A stretch of 64,000 bases of DNA from Tetraselmis striata (lineage: Eukaryota; Chlorophyta; Chlorodendrophyceae; Chlorodendrales; Chlorodendraceae): assembly GCA_006384855.1 (NCBI GenBank), contig VCJN01002370.1:62001-126000 (forward strand), given 5' to 3'. The notes below the pieces were generated by a model. That model saw only the letters and a list, made by a program, of their open reading frames with translations, was not told the origin of the DNA and made no database searches. A program made the translations under genes and the position numbers. Shown in pieces: positions 54,451-64,000 of the stretch (positions are counted from its first letter, which is position 1; every line of letters starts with the position of its first letter).

Positions 54451-54823
54451 TGGCGTGTCTGGCGTCTCGTGGTGTACGTAACTACCCCTGGCCAACTCTG
54501 GGTTTGGGACTTCGGCGTCCGTCGTTGGTGCATGAAGTCACCCTCGCCCGACATCATTGGCATCGTTACGGGCCGGCATGGGCTACATGTGGTCAAATCT
54601 GCGTAACACACGGAAAAATCCCCCTTTGTGACTAATAAGTAGTGCCACTATAGCGAGGGTGTTGTCGTTGTAGACATTTGCTTTTCGAATGAGGCAACGG
54701 TGCCATGGCTATATGCCAGACCTACAACCGCGGTTGGCGCATGAGGTCAAGTGTTGGGGCGGCTTCGGCTGATGACATGCGGCGAAATTTACTTTATTTC
54801 TAGTAGTTGGCGCACGACGCTGA

Positions 54824-55932
54824 CTACGACACGACGATGATGCGTCGCCTCCGCGCCAACATGTGACACGAGGGGATAAGTGGAGCTCGCGGAGGAAGAA
54901 CCGCACGGCCAGGATGGCCAACTACGACTATTGTGCCATTGTGCCTGTCCCGCCAGCGATTGCAGATCGCACACCAGGAGCCGCCGCGCGTTGCGGGACG
55001 AGCTGCCAGGCCTGCGTAGCGACGCGCTGCAACTTGTCCGTCGGGGCATGAAAGATATCCCCTCTGGGTGTCGATGTCGACCCCAAGGTGTCGCCCGAGC
55101 TCCCGCCTGGCAGGGCTCCTGAAAAGCCTCGCTTGGGGTTGCGGGACAGCCCCGGGCAAGCGAGGAGCCACGTCAGCCCCTTCCGGAGCTGGAGCGCCTC
55201 CTCCTTCGTCGAGATTAAGAGCATAAAGTCGTCGACATATACGGCAATATATCCCCCCCACCCCCCCCCCCCCCCCCCCCCCCCCCGCAAGCGCGTCCGC
55301 CGGAGAGAGCGCTTCCTGCGGCGTTCGTGCAACTTGTGCGAAAAGGGAGTTCGGTCTTGCGTAGGTAGCGGACGAAGGTCTCGATGAACGTTGTGAAAAT
55401 GTAGGGGGAGAGGGACCACTACCTCATGGGTAGACCGGTGAGTCTGTAGAGTTGCCCGCGGATGTCGACAGTGAAGTAGTTCCGGTCCTGCTCGGCGATG
55501 CCGAGGGCATTAAAGAAGCCGTCTTGTAGGTCGAACAAAAACATGTAGTCGCCCTTCCTCGTGAGGTGTTAAATCCCGAATAAGTGGGTCTCCATCTTGA
55601 GTCGCTTGCGAACTACGCAATAGGTGTTGAGCACGCGCAAGTCGACTATGCAGCGCAACTGGTTGATGCCGGCGGGTTTGGGAACAAAAAATTCTTGGAA
55701 CGAACATTGCGCATGTGCCGCTCTCCCACGCTCCGGCGGCGATGAAGCGGGCGAACTCCACCTCCGGGAAGGTGAGCTGCGCCGAGGTGGCGTTAAGCAT
55801 AGACACGCCGCAGAGGAAAGGCTTGGGGGGCAGGTTTTGGCGGAAGGGGATGCGGACGCTCTTCCGCCCGGATCCACAAAGGGTTTGTGCGCCGATGTCG
55901 CTCCATGTAGTAATGCTAGCTCCGCCGCACAC
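54824..55932 (-). pseudogene. DIRS-like retroelement reverse transcriptase, frameshifted
   Basis: Reading the minus strand: LTFPEVEFARFIAAGAWE, then LVPKPAGINQLRCIVDLRVL with LNTYCVV (about 55,700-55,600), the RT motif region 'LVPKP.G..R.IVDLR.LN'; then, after frameshifts, YVDDFMLLISTKEEALQLRK (about 55,246-55,187), the catalytic block, followed by LSRNPKRGF and an LGVDIDTQRG-like stretch. These fit DIRS-like RTs with YVDDF. At least three frameshifts and a poly-C run (55,257-55,286) break the ORF. No tyrosine recombinase or RNase H was recognised downstream. Confidence 0.6.
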
Positions 55933-55950
55933 GATGTCGCATGTATGTAC

Positions 55951-57011
55951 TCAGAGTCGGGGGTACAAGAATCGACGCACACCGTCATGCCTCGTCCTCG
56001 TCGGCGGTAGCAGTCTTCTTGCCATGGCGGTCGGGCTGGGGCGTGGTAGGCTTCGTAGGCCGCGGCGGCTGCGTCTTGTCCGTCTTCCTGCCCCTATCGG
56101 TCTTGGTGGGCTTGGTGCCGGTAGCTCTTCCGCCGCCGCGCCCGACACCCGTCCGCTGCCGCCGGGTTCTCCACTCCGCTTGAAGTGAGAGGCAGCTTGG
56201 GCTTTGGCAGCCTGCATGAGGTTGACCTCGAGTCGTTTGTCGTCGAGGGCGGCGAGTAGTCCGGCTATCCCATTGGTTCCGCGCTCGGCGACGGCGGTGT
56301 CAAAGACGCGGATGTAGACGAGCCGCGCGGCGACTCGCTCCTCGCCCGAGAGCGTCTTCTTGCACTTTAATCGACGTAGGTAGTAGGCGAGGTGGTCCTC
56401 GGACCGGGCGTTGGCCGTGGAGAGCTGGGGGAGAGCGGAGGCGAGTATGTCGTTGCAATTGGCGTGCGCGGTGCCCGTCGGGATGGCGTTACTTGCGTGA
56501 AGCGTTGCGAAAGCGTCCTCGAGCGCCGCGTGAGCAGCGGCGGTAAAGACACCATAGCACAAGAGATGCCGGTATTCGTCGCGCGTCGCGTGCTTCTTCT
56601 CCTCCGTGAGGTTCTTCTTCTCCACTCGTCTTCTCGCGAAGTCCACGTGATGGGGGCTAGCAGCCCGACGGGGGCGGGCATGCACTCGACGTACGCCCGA
56701 GGTAGGACGTCAATCCAGTCCCGCGGGACGATGAACGCCGCGGGGACAGTAGGTTGCGTGCGAAGAGAAGCCAGAGGGAGGGCCCTCGGAGCCGTCGTCA
56801 GGCGTCGGGGGATTGGGCTTGTGCTGGGGTGGGGGGGTTGGGGGAGGCGAGAGTGGGTGTATAGCTTGTCGAGCCCCAATGCTAGTCGTTGGACCACGGC
56901 AGTCATGTCGGCGACGGCGTCCGGGGCGGCACGGCGGTCGTCACCGCTCGGCTCCTCGCGTTTGTCTTCGTACATGTCGTCAGGCAGCTTGGGTTGCTTG
57001 AGCGCCATCAT
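55951..57011 (-). pseudogene. gag-like ORF of the DIRS-like element
   Basis: The minus strand opens with MMALKQPKLPDDMYEDKREE at 57,011 and, after a frameshift near 56,690, continues as a 244-codon frame rich in charged helices (EEKKHATRDEYRHLLCYG; DHLAYYLRRLKCKKTLSGEE; AARLVYIRVFDTAVAER), ending in an Arg/Pro/Ser-rich, basic tail. Its position just upstream of the RT on the same strand suggests a capsid-type protein. No zinc knuckle was seen. Confidence 0.45.
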
Positions 57012-57689
57012 ATCGTAGTCGCGTGGGTCTCGGCGAACGTCGAATGTCGAACGTCCTTGTGAGAGGGTTGTAGAGGTCGGACTTAGCGAGTCTACTAGAG
57101 TCTCGATGCCTTGCGTGAGCGATGAGCTCGTGCATAAGCTGATAAGCAGAAGGTGAGCGCCCTTGGTGGGGACCGGAGCATCATCTAGGGGCTGGGACCC
57201 GCGCGTCGCTGCCCGCGGGCCGTGTGTGTTGGTAGCTGAAACGCCCGGGGAAACTGAACAATACGTACGGATGGATTACCAGGTACCAAGTCCCGGTGTA
57301 ATCCAAACCTCAATTAATATTTTACATATGACCATTTTTTGCCCCCCACCCGGGACATGACTGGCAACAACGAACGACGAGGGGATATCTCAAGGCAACA
57401 GCAGCAGCGCGCGCAAATAATGAGGGTGAATAATGCTGCATGTCATTTTCGGCCGTAACCGCAAATAATCGTACGGGTACCCGGTACGAATTTACGGTTG
57501 CGGCTCGCGAGTAGTCGTAAACGCTCAACACGGAGTTGTATTATTGAGCCGTAACCGTAAACTGGCGGATTTGCGGCTCGAGGATTTGCGGCTGGCCTCG
57601 CTGGTCGCAAATATCGCAATATTTACGACCGCCCTAAATATGGCTCACTGAGCCGTAAATGGAAGTAGTACTTTACGCATAATATACAT
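57012..57689. other. repeat-rich spacer between two retroelements
   Basis: It contains many GCCGTAA/TTTACGG words. GCCGTAACCGCAAAT (57,452-57,466) is mirrored with two changes by ATTTACGGTTGCGGC (57,490-57,504), forming an imperfect palindrome of about 53 bp. No coding potential was recognised. Confidence 0.5.
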
Positions 57690-57965
57690 TGTTGGACCCA
57701 GGGTACCCCGGTACCCGGAATCCGCTTTTTCTCTCTGTGAAATCCGCATTTTTCTGGCTGCCGTACATGAGCCTAATTTGGACCTTATGGCAGCAGTACG
57801 GCACCAAAGCATGGCACCTAGGCATCTTTGCCAATTGGCCTTCTTAGACGGAGAGGTGTCCGTTCTAATTGACACCTAGCCGGCTGGTTTAAATTGCCAG
57901 CCTCGGCTCCTTGTAATTCAGTCAACTGCTTTTCCTAAAATATTCCGACTCACCCTTTCTCTCTC

Positions 57966-58151
57966 GTGACAGTGCCACTCAGCCATCACCACGGCGACAG
58001 CGACTACCTTTCGTCCATCGCCCACGGCTCATAGCAGCCCTTTGCCTTCCCAGTTTGCATCTCGCTTGCTGCCACTCGACGTGATTCGACGCATACACGC
58101 CGACTCTCGCCGACTCTCCCCCCATCAGTGACAGTGCCACTCAGCCATCAC
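57966..58151. repeat. 24-bp direct repeat pair in the Copia leader
   Basis: The same 24 bases, beginning GTGACAGTGCC and ending CAGCCATCAC, occur at 57,966-57,989 and 58,128-58,151, 162 bases apart. Between them CGACTCT(C)GC units also repeat. Confidence 0.85.
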
Positions 58152-58362
58152 TTCGACAATCTCCCTCCGACAGGTTTTTGGGCCCTCTCCTTTGGTTCGA
58201 CGTCTTGCCCCGTGCTCGACGCCTGCCAGAGGCTTCAACCTGCGTGTATCTCGACCCTCGACAATTTCCGACGATCGACGGCGCCGTACGACGAGTTTTT
58301 CTTCCCACCCGCCCACCCCTACAGTTATACATCCTCAAGCACAAGTGCGCCATCCCTTCGCA

Positions 58363-60140
58363 ATGTCTACCAGCATCAACACCGGCATGATGAACACCCC
58401 CCTGGCCAATCTGGCTCGGCAGAGTGCGATCAAGACCGACCCTGGCCACGCCCCACCACCTCCTGACTTCCGTGATGATAGCAATTCTGACGACACCTTC
58501 AGCATGGACGGGGCGTCAGACAATGACTCCGAGGTCGTCCAGCATATCAAGCCAGCTGCAGTGAAGCCGACACTCGACCTCAAGAAGTCCCCATCTGGGA
58601 CAACACCATCTCTACACGAGACAACGCTCAAGCCATCAAGATCGCTCTCGGCAGCGCTGGCTACTTGGACACCACCAAGGGCAAAGGCACCCGTCAGGAG
58701 CAAATGATCCTTCTGGCCGCCCTACGCCACGCAACAACCCATTATCCCATGGCACTGGCCATCGTCAACAGCATCAGCATGGATTCCAGGAAGTGTGGAT
58801 ACACCGCATGGAAGGCTCTTCTTACTGAGCTCCAGGGCTCAGCCATGGAGGAGCATAAGCGCTTGGAGGAAGAGATCACAGCGGGCCAGCTCCCGAATGA
58901 GCCGGTTCAGGTGTATGTTCGGCGCTACCAGAACCTCTGGAATCTGCTGAACAAGGCACATGGCCAGTGGACCTTCGAGTACGTGGCTGCCAACTACCTC
59001 ATCCCAGGTCTTCACCCAGACTACGATCATATCGTCGACACCACCACCTCGGCGGCCAATGTCAACGAGAAGCTGGCAACCATCATCAGCGCCGGACAGA
59101 ACATGGAGGCGCGCAAGCGTCAGCGTCAGCAGCGCGTCCGCGCCTGCCCACCCAACCTCAATTCCTACAGCCCCAGGGACCCGCAGCACACCACCGGCCC
59201 CAGCGTTGTCTGCAGGCGGTGTGACCGTCCGGGCCATACCCAGCAGCAGTGTGTGGCCAGGCGCCATGCCAATGGCATGCATATCCTGGATGACACCACG
59301 CCGACCAGCACCATGACCAACCCTCGCTATGACCGCCATCAGCGCGCGCCTGCGGAGCGTCGCGTCAACACCAACTATGGCCACCACCCGCGCGACAACT
59401 ACCGCCATCAGGCACCGCCAGGCCAGCCTTTCTACAACGACAACCGCAACAATCAGAACAGGCCCCAGCGGCAGCAACGTTGGACAAACCAGGGCGGCAA
59501 CGACGGCATGCAGCGTCATCAGCAGCCGGTCGGCTTCGTCTCCCCTGCCGGACGTCAGCACCCGGGTCATCAGCATGCCAGCGACACCTTCACCCAACGG
59601 CCGACGGGACACCAGGAGGCCTACCCGTTCGTGGGAGTGTCCCCATCAGCACAACACCACAGCAGCCTGCCTATCATGCTCACCTGCAACTCTGCCGCCC
59701 AACGAGGGGCGGACACCGGAGCACATGAGGGGGAGGGCGAGGACATCGCGGAGGATGACTTACATGACCCCTGGCACGTCCCCTACTCCGACTCTTATGG
59801 CGACTTCGAGTCCCCGTTCTCACCCTCATGGCATGTTCACCGCTCCCGCCCTCACCCCGACGCCTTCCCGATCTTCGATACCCCCGACATCCCCCCCCGC
59901 TGGAACGTTTACTCCCATCCCTACTCCCTCGATCCCCCCATCCACCTATTCGACATCAATTGGCAACGTCCCCACCCCGTCCCCACCTCAGCCCAACCCC
60001 TATGCCTCACTTCACCCACATTCCCCGCCTCGGCGGCGTTGGCATTCCACATTCTTCATGCGGAGCAAGGCGCCCTGCGTGGCGACCCGCCACCAACACT
60101 ACCGCTCCTCACCGCTGCGCCGATCCTCCCGCTGCCAACC
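58363..60140 (+). CDS. Copia gag with CCHC zinc knuckle, frameshifted
   Basis: The likely start is ATG at 58,363 (MSTSINTGMMNTPLANLARQ). The frame shifts near 58,590 at a C run; the new frame reads IWDNTISTRDNAQAIKIALG, YLDTTKGKGTRQEQM and continues open to 60,191. GYTAWKALLTELQGSAMEEH, VQVYVRRYQNLWNLL and a long helical part fit the UBN2/Copia gag domain. The zinc knuckle CRRCDRPGHTQQQC (CX2CX4HX4C) lies at about 59,212-59,253. A His/Pro/Arg/Gln-rich basic region and a Pro-rich tail follow, longer than in a usual Copia gag, and lead towards the methyltransferase. The product would package the element RNA in cytoplasmic particles. Confidence 0.75.
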
Positions 60141-61078
60141 TCTGGTCATCGACCATCTGTTTTTGCCCTGCCATGGCCCATCGGCATCTGAAGTAGAGGC
60201 GCTGGTAGGATACGGCTTCACCATCCACAAGATCACCGGCGCCGACCCGTCGCCCGAGGCTCGTACTATGTGGACGCATCGCCTACATGTCATCAGCGAC
60301 AAGTACCCGGACCGTCTGCCTCCTTCAGCATTTCAGGACTGTCATGCCAGGACCCCCATGGACGTCAACAACATCACCATCGCGGAGCTGGAGACCCTGC
60401 GTCCGGTCACCCTCATCGTGTCAAGCCCACCGTGTCAACCATGGTCGCGCGCTGGCTCACGCCTTGGCTGGCAGGACCATCGCTCTCGGACCTTTGCTTC
60501 CGTCATCAGTTTCATCCGTTTCTACCTGACTACAGAGCCCACACCGGTGCGCTACATTGTGGAGAATGTTCCAGGCGCGCTGGACTTCCCTGAGATACTC
60601 TCCTCACTTGGCACCGGCAACATCATGCGTGCGACCGCCTGCGGCTCGGCGGCTCACCGCGACACCCTCCTGTGGACCAATATCGCTTCGCAAACCGATG
60701 TCCAGGACTACATCAACAACATAAACGCCATCGAGCTCACCGACCCCGGCCCCTGCGCGTGGGACCTCCGGATCTCCGAATTCCCCCACTTTACTCTAGT
60801 GGTGACAACTGACTACTTTCCGAAGTTCGTCGCCCGCCCCGGCTCACACGCTTTTCGGATGCAAACCAACGGTCAGCCGGGCATTGGCATGGTCAACGAA
60901 CATGATGGCCCCTAGTCCTGGCAGACAACGGCAGATGGTGCGAACCCCCTGCAGCTCTACGCGCTCGCGCCATGGGCTTCACCTTGGATGATCTGCCCAC
61001 ATCTCACCTTTCTGAGGCGACACTGCGCAAACTTCTCGGCGGGGTCATCGACCTCAACGTAATGCGCAACTACATCAA
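60141..61078 (+). CDS. C5-cytosine DNA methyltransferase domain in a Copia polyprotein
   Basis: Frame 1 up to a TAG at 60,913-60,915 and then frame 3 encode a methyltransferase of about 310 residues. Motif IV is SSPPCQPWSRAG (catalytic Cys codon 60,433-60,435); motif VI is YIVENVPGALD (ENV at 60,562-60,570); motif VIII is GSAAHRDTLLWTN (about 60,643-60,681), like the SAAHR block of Dnmt3-type enzymes; after a target-recognition-sized stretch, motif IX reads ALRARAMGF and motif X LRKLLGGVIDLNVM (about 61,024-61,065). Motif II-like GADPSPEA is present. Motif I (FxGxG) is not intact: LFLPCHGPSASEVEALVGYG stands there. Known analogues are retrotransposon-borne DNMTs reported in dinoflagellates and charophytes; Dnmt3 relation is inferred from motif VIII and length only. 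The TAG and frame change fall between motifs VIII and IX. Confidence 0.88.
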
Positions 61079-61790
61079 GGCTGTCTCGGGCGCCGCCCCT
61101 TCCCCAGCCGTCATCACTGTCTGCCACACGTCATACGGCACCCTCATCACCAGCGATGGCGAGGCATGGGTGCTCATCGACTCGGGAGCATCCTCTCACG
61201 TCAACGCCCACCGCACCGACTACATCTACTACATGGACATTCCTGCGGCGGAGCAATTTCTGGTGGGCGGTTTCGGGCAACCGGCAGTCGGCATCGGCAC
61301 CACGATGGCGCCAACACTAGACATCACAGGCAGGCCACATACCATTGTGGCACGAGACTGTTACCATACTCCTGACATCACCTCCAGTGTCGGTCTCACC
61401 AACATCAGCCGCCTCCTCAGCACCCATCAACTCAGCAAGCAGGGCTACTCTTTCTACTTCAGCCGCCTCCTCAACAGCATGATCACCCCAGATGGCGCAG
61501 TCATCCACCTTCAGCCCTACCCCGGCACCACAGGCATTTACGGCATCAAGCTCCTTCCCATAATCCGCGATCCGTCTCATGGGGTCATGGCACTGCCATC
61601 TCCAACGGCCTCCTACTCCATGTGGCATCTTCGACTTGGTCATCGCTGCGCGCGCCACATGGAGCTCACCCAACAACATGCCATCGGCATCCCGAAACTC
61701 GGATCTGCACCGGAGGCCATATGCCCAGCGTGCATTCATGCCAATCCCACCAGCAGTCAGTCAACCGTCAGCCCTCCCCGCGCGCGGAGG
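61079..61790 (+). CDS. Copia aspartic protease and GAG-pre-integrase zinc finger
   Basis: In frame 3, directly after the methyltransferase, comes VLIDSGASSHV: the DSGAS active site (Asp codon 61,179), typical of Copia proteases. GRPHTIVARDCYHTPDI and LTNISRLLSTHQLSKQG match the usual 'L..V..L...' block before the integrase. MWHLRLGHRCARHMELTQQH and CPACIHAN (about 61,620-61,740) form the HHCC zinc finger of the pre-integrase domain. The protease would release gag, methyltransferase and pol products. The frame then shifts by one near 61,775. Confidence 0.82.
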
Positions 61791-62358
61791 CACCATACAT
61801 GCTCGTGGTCATCGACGACTGGAAGGGACCTTGTCCGTCGGTCACTGGCGCGCAGCATGTTTTCGGCGCGGTGGATTCCTACACTGGAGTAAAGGTAGTG
61901 ATCACCATGCGCACCAAGGACGAGGCCGTCCGCGCCGTCCATCAACTTCATGCGGCGGTTCTCGGCATGGGTCACACCGTTCAACGCATACGTGCCGATC
62001 GCAGCGTGGTTTATACCGGCTCTCCGTTTCGTCAAGCATGTGCAGACCTCAACATCGCGCCGGAGTTTACCGAATCCCACTCTCATCATCAGGCTGGCCT
62101 GGCGGAGCGCTCTTTCCGCACTATCGGTGAGTGTGCCCAAGCCATGCTTCTCCACGCCAGCCTCGACCGCACCGTCTGGGACTGGGCGTATCTTCACGCC
62201 GTCTATCTCTATCTGCAACCGCCAGTGGAGCTCGTCCGTCAACGCCATACCTTACACGCTGATGACCGGTCGCAAACCCGACCTCGCCAACCTGCATGTT
62301 TTCGGCTGTGTGGCCTGGGTCAACATACATGTGACTATGCGGGCAGCCAAAGGGAAAA
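61791..62358 (+). CDS. Copia integrase core, frameshifted
   Basis: In frame 2: YMLVVIDDWKGPCPSVTGAQ, then FGAVDSYTGVKVV with the first acidic residue region (about 61,812), RADRSVVYTGSPF with the second Asp (about 61,994), and ESHSHHQAGLAERSFRTIGE with the catalytic Glu (about 62,105). The spacing of about 37 residues fits the D,D35E pattern. The usual 'TDNGxEF' is replaced by 'ADRSVVYTGS'. After about 62,225 the frame changes again to frame 3 (PYTLMTGRKPDLANLHVFGC, the Copia 'P...W....P....LRxFGC' block) and once more at 62,359. It would insert cDNA copies in the nucleus. Confidence 0.75.
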
Positions 62359-64000
62359 ATGACACCTAAATCCTGGCCGGGCATCTACGTTGGGCACCAT
62401 GAGGACTCCGCCCGCTACCGCATATACAACCCGGCTACCATGCGCGAAACGGTTACACGCGATGTCATCTTTGATGAGGTGACACGACCCTTCTCTAGCA
62501 CACCGGCACTCTCTATGCCAGTCTTCCAGCTCCCCGACGATGACCACCTGATGGATGAGCCGCAACCCTTGGACCAACATGAGGGGCCCCACGCGCCACC
62601 TCCCATGCCGCCACCCATGCCACCATCAGCGGCGCTTGCCTCCGCGCAGGAGGGGCCCCCACCTCCGCAGCCAGAAGGGACGTATCTTCCGCGTCATCAG
62701 GAGGGGGACGCCACATCACTACCAACTCCTCACTCCAGTGAATCAGCGCACACATCTTCTCCTTATGTCGACCTTAGCGACTACCACCCCAAGCTGGTAG
62801 CATCCGCCATCGCGGAGGTTGTGCGCCCCTACCCGGCGCAGATGGCCGCCCTCGCCCTGCCAGCACCCACTGTCCGCGTGTCCAAGGCGCCGCGCAACTA
62901 CAAGGAGGCCATCTCCAGCAATCACCCCGATGACTGGAAACAGTCCATGGACCGAGAGATCGCCTCTATCACCAAGATGGAGACCTTTGTTTGGATCAGC
63001 ATTCCTGACCTTCGCCGTGACAACCCATCAACAATCATCATACATATGGCGTGGGCCTTTGCGGAGAAACAAGACAAGGATGGCAACCTCATCAAGCGCA
63101 AGGCCAGAGTGGTTGTCCGCGGCGATCAACTTACTGCCGGCGAGAACTATGATGACACTAAGACCTATGCCCCAGTCGTCAGCTTCATCGCCTTGCGCAC
63201 CACTATTGCTCTCGGGGTTCAACTTGACTGGGAGCTGTACCAGTTCGACGTCACTTGTGCTTTCCTCAACGCTAACCTCGATGAAGATGTCTACGTCTAC
63301 CCCCCTGGCTACGGCCGCAAGGATCAGGCTTGGAAACTCGTTAAGGCACTCTATGGCCTGCCGCAGGCACCCAAGGCATGGTTTCTGCACTTTTCTTCTT
63401 TTCTCCGTGACTTCGGCTTCGTCAGCTCCGAGTGCGATCCAGGCGTATGGACGCTGCTCGCAGTCGATAAATCGCTGCTGGCCATCCTATGCGTCTACGT
63501 CGATGACATCATGCTGGCTACCTCCCCGTCGTCCGACATCCGGGAGGGTTTTCAGACTTCTCTCTTCTCTACGTTTGATGCGACTACTGACGGCCTATGC
63601 ACCTGGCTTCTTGGCATGGCCATTGATCGCAAGCCGGGAGGCGTGCTCCACCTCCATCAGGAGAAATACATCAACGACATCTTGACTACCTTCAACATGG
63701 CGGCGTGCGCGCCTCGCCGCCTACCCTGCACACCGGATACCGATTTTCATGACCCTACAAGCACGCCCCTCGACACCAAACTCTTTCCCTATCCCAATCT
63801 TGTTGGTAGCCTTATCTGGTTGGCTGTGGCATCACGCCCGGACATTGCGTTCGTGGTCGGCCGCCCGTGCGCCTACATGGCGTCCCCCGCCGAGCGTCAC
63901 TGGCAGATCGCCGTATCAGTGCTGCGCTACCTCAAGGGCACCCCCAACCATGGCCTCATCTTCCGGAAGCAACGGGACAACGAGGCACCTGACTTCCTCT
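62359..64000 (+). CDS. Copia reverse transcriptase / RNase H, runs off window
   Basis: Frame 1 is open from ATG 62,359 to the window end, 547 codons without a stop. It starts MTPKSWPGIYVGHHEDSARY and VTRDVIFDE, the Copia integrase C-terminal 'GKD' block, followed by a Pro-rich linker. RT (RVT_2) starts near NYKEAISSNHPDDWKQSMDR; RKARVVVRGDQLTAGENYDD, TYAPVVSFIALR, QFDVTCAFLNANLDEDVYV, LYGLPQAPKAWF and the catalytic CVYVDDIML (YVDD at 63,496-63,507) are all in place. GSLIWLAVASRPDIAF and SVLRYLKGTPNHGLIF lead to RNase H, which is cut by the window edge. This is the best preserved part of the element and suggests recent activity. Confidence 0.93.
   Translation, partial: MTPKSWPGIYVGHHEDSARYRIYNPATMRETVTRDVIFDEVTRPFSSTPALSMPVFQLPDDDHLMDEPQPLDQHEGPHAPPPMPPPMPPSAALASAQEGPPPPQPEGTYLPRHQEGDATSLPTPHSSESAHTSSPYVDLSDYHPKLVASAIAEVVRPYPAQMAALALPAPTVRVSKAPRNYKEAISSNHPDDWKQSMDREIASITKMETFVWISIPDLRRDNPSTIIIHMAWAFAEKQDKDGNLIKRKARVVVRGDQLTAGENYDDTKTYAPVVSFIALRTTIALGVQLDWELYQFDVTCAFLNANLDEDVYVYPPGYGRKDQAWKLVKALYGLPQAPKAWFLHFSSFLRDFGFVSSECDPGVWTLLAVDKSLLAILCVYVDDIMLATSPSSDIREGFQTSLFSTFDATTDGLCTWLLGMAIDRKPGGVLHLHQEKYINDILTTFNMAACAPRRLPCTPDTDFHDPTSTPLDTKLFPYPNLVGSLIWLAVASRPDIAFVVGRPCAYMASPAERHWQIAVSVLRYLKGTPNHGLIFRKQRDNEAPDFL

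Follow-up and report, generated by a model that had tools for sequence, protein, structure and literature searches.

A decayed Ty1/Copia retrotransposon of Tetraselmis striata with a C5-cytosine methyltransferase domain, probably DNMT3-like, between gag and protease

The window analyzed here, a stretch of 64,000 nucleotides from the alga Tetraselmis striata (contig VCJN01002370.1, positions 62,001 to 126,000; C1912:62,001-126,000 in our numbering), contains most of a single Ty1/Copia retrotransposon, the 3' end of which lies beyond the window (Table 1). The host had been taken for a chlorophyte from the sequence, and this agrees with its classification in Chlorophyta and with the T. striata gene model TSEL_027319, which matches 86% of the queried part at 100% identity. 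An initial annotation had placed a C5-cytosine methyltransferase (MTase) between a CCHC gag and a DSGAS protease in this element, and the end points it gave for the domain proved correct to within a few bases. The Pfam model DNA_methylase matches the frame at 59,317-60,915 (E 1.2e-9; score 38.5 bits, cut-off 22), and motifs I, IV, VI, VIII, IX and X of C5-MTases are found in order, with the catalytic Cys, the ENV Glu and the motif VIII Arg. The proposed position inside the polyprotein was borne out by relatives in which gag, MTase and protease share a single frame, and the Copia identity by the gag_pre-integrs, rve, SH3_retrovirus and RVT_2 domains, which follow downstream in Copia order. Two domains that are faint in the window are clear in a related family, F2, in which Pfam reports zf-CCHC at E 3.2e-6 and Pol_BBD at 8.3e-10. 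Outside the element, long overlapping frames occupy the minus strand at 54,800-57,275, and none of the five that were scanned matched Pfam.

Table 1. Features of the T. striata Copia element, in window positions (position in locus L009, the window copy, plus 57,399)
Feature	Position	Strand	Remarks
Whole Ty1/Copia element	57,690-65,023		7,334 bp; most inside window, 3' LTR outside
Target-site duplication TACAT, 5' copy	57,685-57,689	+	From flanks; 3' copy beyond 3' LTR, outside window
5' LTR	57,690-58,172	+	TGTTGG...CCGACA; partner at 64,529-65,023
gag, including CCHC zinc knuckle	58,363-59,252	+	Frame changes near 58,590
CCHC knuckle	59,211-59,252	+	CRRCDRPGHTQQQC; zf-CCHC weak here, E 0.1
gag-to-MTase linker	59,253-60,140	+	His/Asn/Gln-rich, then acidic; gag frame
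C5-cytosine MTase domain	60,141-61,083	+	Motifs I, IV, VI, VIII, IX, X (60,141-61,078 in the initial annotation)
MTase motif IV	60,427-60,447	+	PPCQPWS
MTase motif VI	60,562-60,570	+	ENV
MTase motif VIII	60,646-60,660	+	SAAHR
MTase motif IX	60,960-60,980	+	RARAMGF; by codon position
MTase motif X	61,032-61,061	+	LLGGVIDLNV; by codon position
Aspartic protease start	61,170-61,390	+	LIDSGASSH 61,173-61,199, DSGAS 61,179-61,193; Pol_BBD 0.009
GAG-pre-integrase	61,578-61,742	+	PF13976, 2.2e-6, 27.8 bits, just below cut-off 28.4
Integrase core (rve)	61,790-62,083	+	Other frame; PF00665, 1.5e-7, 32.0 bits, just below cut-off 32.6
Retroviral SH3-like domain	62,347-62,487	+	PF25597, 5.8e-11
Copia reverse transcriptase RVT_2	63,037-63,729	+	PF07727, 3.9e-43; element continues beyond window end
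3' LTR	64,529-65,023		Outside window; 96.2% identical to 5' LTR

The window copy is decayed. At least six frame changes interrupt it, near 58.59, 60.14, 60.91, 61.74, 62.21 and 62.36 kb, and the MTase is split over two frames by a change near 60,906-60,915. The same gag-MTase linker is also in frame in a relative, L025. Compared with L025, the window copy shows dN/dS values of 0.50 in gag, 0.51 in the MTase, 0.57 in the protease-integrase (PR-IN) region and 0.48 in the reverse transcriptase (RT); a ratio of about 0.5 in every domain is what is expected of a copy drifting after its insertion.

A search of the T. striata genome with PF00145 gave 123 matches among 337 candidates. The 44 loci fetched (L009-L052) comprise the window copy, 23 loci of 8.4-10 kb, picked mostly for long open frames so that intact copies are over-represented among them, and 20 short stretches without their surroundings. 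An MTase of this group is present at 43 of the 44 loci, 42 of them Copia and one LINE-like, the latter label being an interpretation of domain content. By family, 19 loci belong to F1 (that of the window copy), 17 to F2, six to F3 and one to the LINE-like element D, while L052 is without a match. The MTase is free of stops in one stretch in eight F1, 15 F2 and two F3 loci and in the D copy; one of the 15 F2 loci, L019, was scored on a neighboring copy that also falls within L017, leaving 14 that are sure. Open frames span 1,767-2,483 aa, beginning in gag or in the linker and passing through MTase and PR into IN, with the full-length ones continuing to RT, and several copies hold gag-MTase-PR-IN-RT in one uninterrupted frame. 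LTR pairs are 98.7-100% identical in 16 other measured elements (the 78.6% pair of L022 was left out, being taken as spurious), indicating that these copies inserted recently. Open-frame, recently inserted relatives of the window copy, which the initial annotation had proposed looking for, are therefore present in the genome. A 5-bp target-site duplication flanks all seven elements for which the flanks were read (L009, L012 and L024-L028). LTRs of F1 end in TG...CA; those of F2 have TGTTGA...TCTAGA instead. In the window, in F2 and in the intact copies the integrase precedes RVT_2 and a GAG-pre-integrase is present, as in Ty1/Copia elements. The F2 frame continues past the RT, where Pfam names no RNase H; we take this end of the frame to resemble that of a Copia element.

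A fourth Copia family, F4, has PPCAPFS in place of PPCQPFS in its MTase, with a protease motif downstream of it, and the Copia MTase profile matches it at 338 bits. Used as a query, the F4 MTase matched 127 genome rows at E <=1e-10 (434 candidates). At least four Copia families (F1-F4) therefore carry an MTase before the protease. Another set of MTases, 33-34% identical to F4, occurs on C193, C1901, C1860 and other contigs in frames of up to 2,164 aa; neither it nor F4 is among the 123 PF00145 matches. The genome also holds a Copia family with frames of 1,561 aa in which, in the one copy read, the zinc knuckle leads directly to the protease with no MTase between them, and this family makes up many of the 150 RT hits that were scored out of 897 candidates. 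Three F2 elements of 6.7 kb (L015, L018 and L021) have LTRs 99.4-100% identical and an intact frame of gag, MTase, PR and IN, with no match to RVT_2. An RT tree had suggested two separate gains of the MTase within Copia (AU p 0.044), and this was rejected because the supposedly MTase-less L063 family carries F4. F4 matches also lie beside L065 and L066, so that only L064 among L063-L066 is without an MTase, and one MTase-less row is too few for the RT tree to be informative on the number of gains.

It could be supposed that the MTase match is due to chance, or that a Copia element inserted into an unrelated MTase gene, and the broken frames of the window copy would allow this. However, the same domain recurs at 43 of the 44 fetched loci, and at the long loci it is enclosed by the LTRs with their 5-bp duplications and shares a single frame with gag and pol. 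The intact gag-MTase-PR-IN-RT frames rule this reading out, its probability being negligible. That the element is a Copia retrotransposon with an MTase between nucleocapsid and protease is, conversely, close to certain.

In an alignment of F1, F2, F3, D and five database relatives, without F4, the motif I C-x-G, the motif IV PPCQP-S, ENV and the motif VIII Arg are invariant and the motif X Asn is nearly so. Motif I is weak in F1 (PCHGPS), with only C-x-G kept. Among 43 rows (42 distinct copies), which were found through a profile that favors these catalytic residues, the catalytic Cys and the ENV Glu are present in 43 each, and the Asn and the Arg in 40 each. A side branch of F1 among the T. 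striata gene models (P0010-P0017) has an MTase without ENV, and the motif IV Cys is gone in P0012-P0015; the N-terminal half of the MTase is kept in this branch, and P0010-P0013, read over their whole length, lack the C-terminal MTase part, the protease and the integrase. The clearest pairs within F1 and F2 give MTase dN/dS values of 0.12-0.22. These pairs indicate that the MTase is under purifying selection, although the ratio is not low throughout. The remaining F1 pairs, mostly of broken copies, lie at 0.27-0.63. Three F2 pairs that are broken or diverged give 0.34-0.52, and F2 pairs that are nearly identical have few changes and unstable values of 0.25-1.0. From F2 to F3 the MTase has diverged at about double the rate of the RT (dN 0.43 vs 0.22), with synonymous sites saturated. 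Compared with L010, L018 and L021 show an MTase dS of about 0.20 and a dS of 0.06-0.08 in gag and PR-IN; the two elements look like mosaics in which subfamilies may have swapped the MTase segment.

Among the MTases compared, those nearest to the Copia MTases lie in LINE-type elements. A Copia-only MTase profile scores 126-232 bits to nine LINE-type MTases (L029, P0031 and P0151-P0157), 49 bits to the top scorer among 113 other database hits and 23 bits to DNMT3A; in reverse, a LINE-type profile scores 160-206 bits to ten Copia MTases. The assignment of P0031, a bare MTase frame from a contig of 1,675 bases, to the LINE type is by similarity alone. The proteins P0151-P0157, from ENA and JGI contigs, contain DNA_methylase in seven of seven cases, PCIF1_WW in six and RVT_1 in the same protein in three; in P0152 an endonuclease, RVT_1, PHD, PCIF1_WW, DNA_methylase and RNase_H are joined in one protein. 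Element D (L029, on C2687) has a 3,505-aa frame, the fetched part of which, excluding the upstream third, contains RVT_1, PCIF1_WW, DNA_methylase and RNase_H. L029 and its relatives thus place two methyltransferase-type domains, PCIF1-like and C5-MTase, in one transposon. In the MTase tree, support is 97/98 for Copia and LINE-type MTases apart from the others, 94/94 for the LINE type and 91/86 for Copia. A tree without DNMT3A gave 91/78 and 67/40 for the LINE type and Copia, respectively, and another tree gave 88/87 for the Copia clade, so that a single clade of Copia MTases is tentative. For the rows tested, the profile scores and the tree show one retrotransposon MTase group, comprising Copia and LINE-type members, with the other C5-MTases tested scoring far lower. 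The initial annotation had offered two accounts of the Copia MTase, a third independent capture or a wider-spread lineage; the latter gains, since at least four Copia families together with LINE-like elements have one MTase group. The link to the LINE-like elements suggests that transposons of different classes have passed the domain among themselves, rather than capturing it from hosts time and again.

Other sources for the domain were considered and rejected. Two MTases scored from elsewhere in the same genome give 10 bits (L002, 325 aa) and 7 bits (L007, 327 aa) to the Copia profile. Free-standing C5-MTase frames of 325 aa occur at six places (L001-L006), of which L002 is far from the Copia MTases; the ORF neighboring L002 looks like that of a polinton-like virus. 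Among viruses, ten IMG/VR loci matched weakly, and none of the eight viral frames scored is among the 45 best profile rows. The Copia MTase was not found outside T. striata in database searches, whose length limits largely left out long Copia polyproteins of other species, and among the database matches listed no protein is named as coming from the retrotransposons of PMC5890265.

In sequence and fold the MTase appears nearest to DNMT3, to which it may belong. Alignment of the predicted fold with DNMT3A gives about 20% identity (the model of the window's own 257-aa piece, with a mean pLDDT of 51.5, was not used), and in a profile search of the PDB, DNMT3A stands 3 bits above HaeIII. Human DNMT3A has SPCND where the Copia MTase has PPCQP, and the stretch between motifs II and III is longer in the Copia MTase. 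We regard a DNMT3-like enzyme acting on DNA as the probable nature of the domain. The same polyprotein holds protease, integrase and reverse transcriptase, from which we infer that the MTase would be packaged in the virus-like particle alongside RT and IN, after which the protease of the element would release it. Given this position, the simplest role would be to methylate cDNA as it is made: the MTase would modify cytosines, probably those of CpG, in the double-stranded cDNA of its own element, either ahead of integration or during it, and a fresh insertion would enter the genome already marked. The mark may protect the cDNA from cleavage or from recognition as foreign, or it may set the chromatin state. 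The RT-less elements suggest that the MTase acts in cis, on the element encoding it, since these elements evidently borrow RT and yet retain the MTase.

Traces of methylation in the elements are mixed. Inside F1, 79 of 166 transitions are at CpG, which makes up 26% of G+C (about 2.6 times other C/G transitions per site), and inside F2 87 of 248, with CpG at 24.5% of G+C (about 1.7 times), in both cases from pairs that share one reference and are thus not independent. CpG transitions are not enriched between LTRs (2 of 17 vs 12.8%), and CpG observed/expected is mildly low at 0.80-0.91. Methylation by the host would give the same enrichment.

Three other roles for the domain can be weighed against methylation of the element's own cDNA. 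The MTase might methylate RNA, such as the packaged genomic RNA, the tRNA primer or, like DNMT2, host tRNA, for packaging or stability. Its position next to the nucleocapsid in Gag-Pol would suit such a role, chains of the DNMT2 type rank fairly high in the PDB search (43.2 bits vs 48.7), and the LINE-like relatives have beside the MTase a PCIF1-like domain, of a family known for RNA methylation. The fold and the joint profile are nevertheless nearer to DNMT3, and DNA is the substrate of two retrotransposon DNMT3 domains already published (PMC5890265); we consider action on RNA unlikely, though the least unlikely of the three. A domain that is no longer an enzyme and serves as a nucleic-acid-binding part of Gag-Pol would accord with the odd motif I of F1 and with its side branch, in which the N-terminal half persists without ENV and partly without the motif IV Cys. 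Against such a loss of function stand the strong constraint in the clearest pairs and the Cys and Glu found in all 43 rows, albeit via a profile favoring them, and we judge it improbable. The same degree of doubt attaches to action in trans, in which the MTase would be kept for altering the host methylome or competing with host silencing, as hypothesized for Symbiodinium (PMC5890265). The high copy number, with 127 rows at E <=1e-10 for the F4 query, speaks for it, but a benefit common to all elements is hard to maintain by selection on single copies, and a Copia family that has no MTase does well in this very genome. As an overall explanation we lean, by a little, toward a decayed Ty1/Copia copy with a DNMT3-like C5-MTase in its Gag-Pol that would have methylated the element's own cDNA; taken by itself, the claim that this methylation is the selected role we hold to be evenly balanced. 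Counting against this explanation are the weak motif I of F1, the F1 side branch that lost catalytic residues, the uneven dN/dS values, the mixed CpG traces, the success of a Copia family without the domain, the small margin of DNMT3A over HaeIII and the inactivity in yeast of the published SymbioLINE and KnitGypsy domains. More tentatively still, and rather doubtfully, the MTase may be a mobile retrotransposon module apart from host DNMTs, moving between algal LINE-like and Copia elements and placing a cis self-mark on new cDNA.

DNMT-bearing retrotransposons are known already. De Mendoza et al. 2018 describe DIRS, LINE and Gypsy carriers, among which two SymbioDIRS domains methylate CpG in yeast, while neither the SymbioLINE nor the KnitGypsy domain was active there, a result the authors call inconclusive (PMC5890265). 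By its domain order the T. striata element is Copia and differs in class from these carriers. Closest in kind is KnitGypsy-Dnmt3 of Klebsormidium nitens, which also comes from an alga of the green lineage and is an LTR retrotransposon whose polyprotein includes a DNMT3-like domain under purifying selection (PMC5890265); it is, however, Ty3/Gypsy, whereas the T. striata element is Ty1/Copia, with the integrase before RVT_2 and the MTase between gag and protease. SymbioDIRS-Dnmt3 and SymbioLINE-Dnmt of Symbiodinium also bear a C5-MTase but, compared by their description in that text, SymbioDIRS has a tyrosine recombinase and SymbioLINE no LTR, unlike the T. striata Copia. The DNMT of SymbioLINE is described there in an ORF before the RT ORF (PMC5890265), whereas in the LINE-like elements found here the MTase follows the RT, mostly beside the PCIF1-like domain. 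One sentence of a later paper (PMC12344493, Mol Biol Evol 2025) assigns some members of DNMT3 to "LTR Copia and DIRS" elements; its source is the 2018 paper, in which the elements are Gypsy and DIRS. The word Tetraselmis has no occurrence in the main text of the later paper. PMC9998398 reports no DNMT3 in the green algae of MMETSP. Beyond that passing sentence, no description of a Copia element with a C5-MTase turned up in the literature searched, which excludes bioRxiv preprints altogether and the majority of papers behind subscription; nor was any found, within the same scope, of LINEs combining PCIF1 and C5-MTase.

These elements present a paradox, in that hosts silence transposons by cytosine methylation and yet here a transposon carries the writer of that mark. 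The published cases left the purpose of a transposon-borne DNMT open. In T. striata, young carriers from several families, an MTase-less Copia family and elements that keep the MTase without an RT are found in one alga and form a natural comparison set, which lets one ask whether new insertions arrive already methylated.
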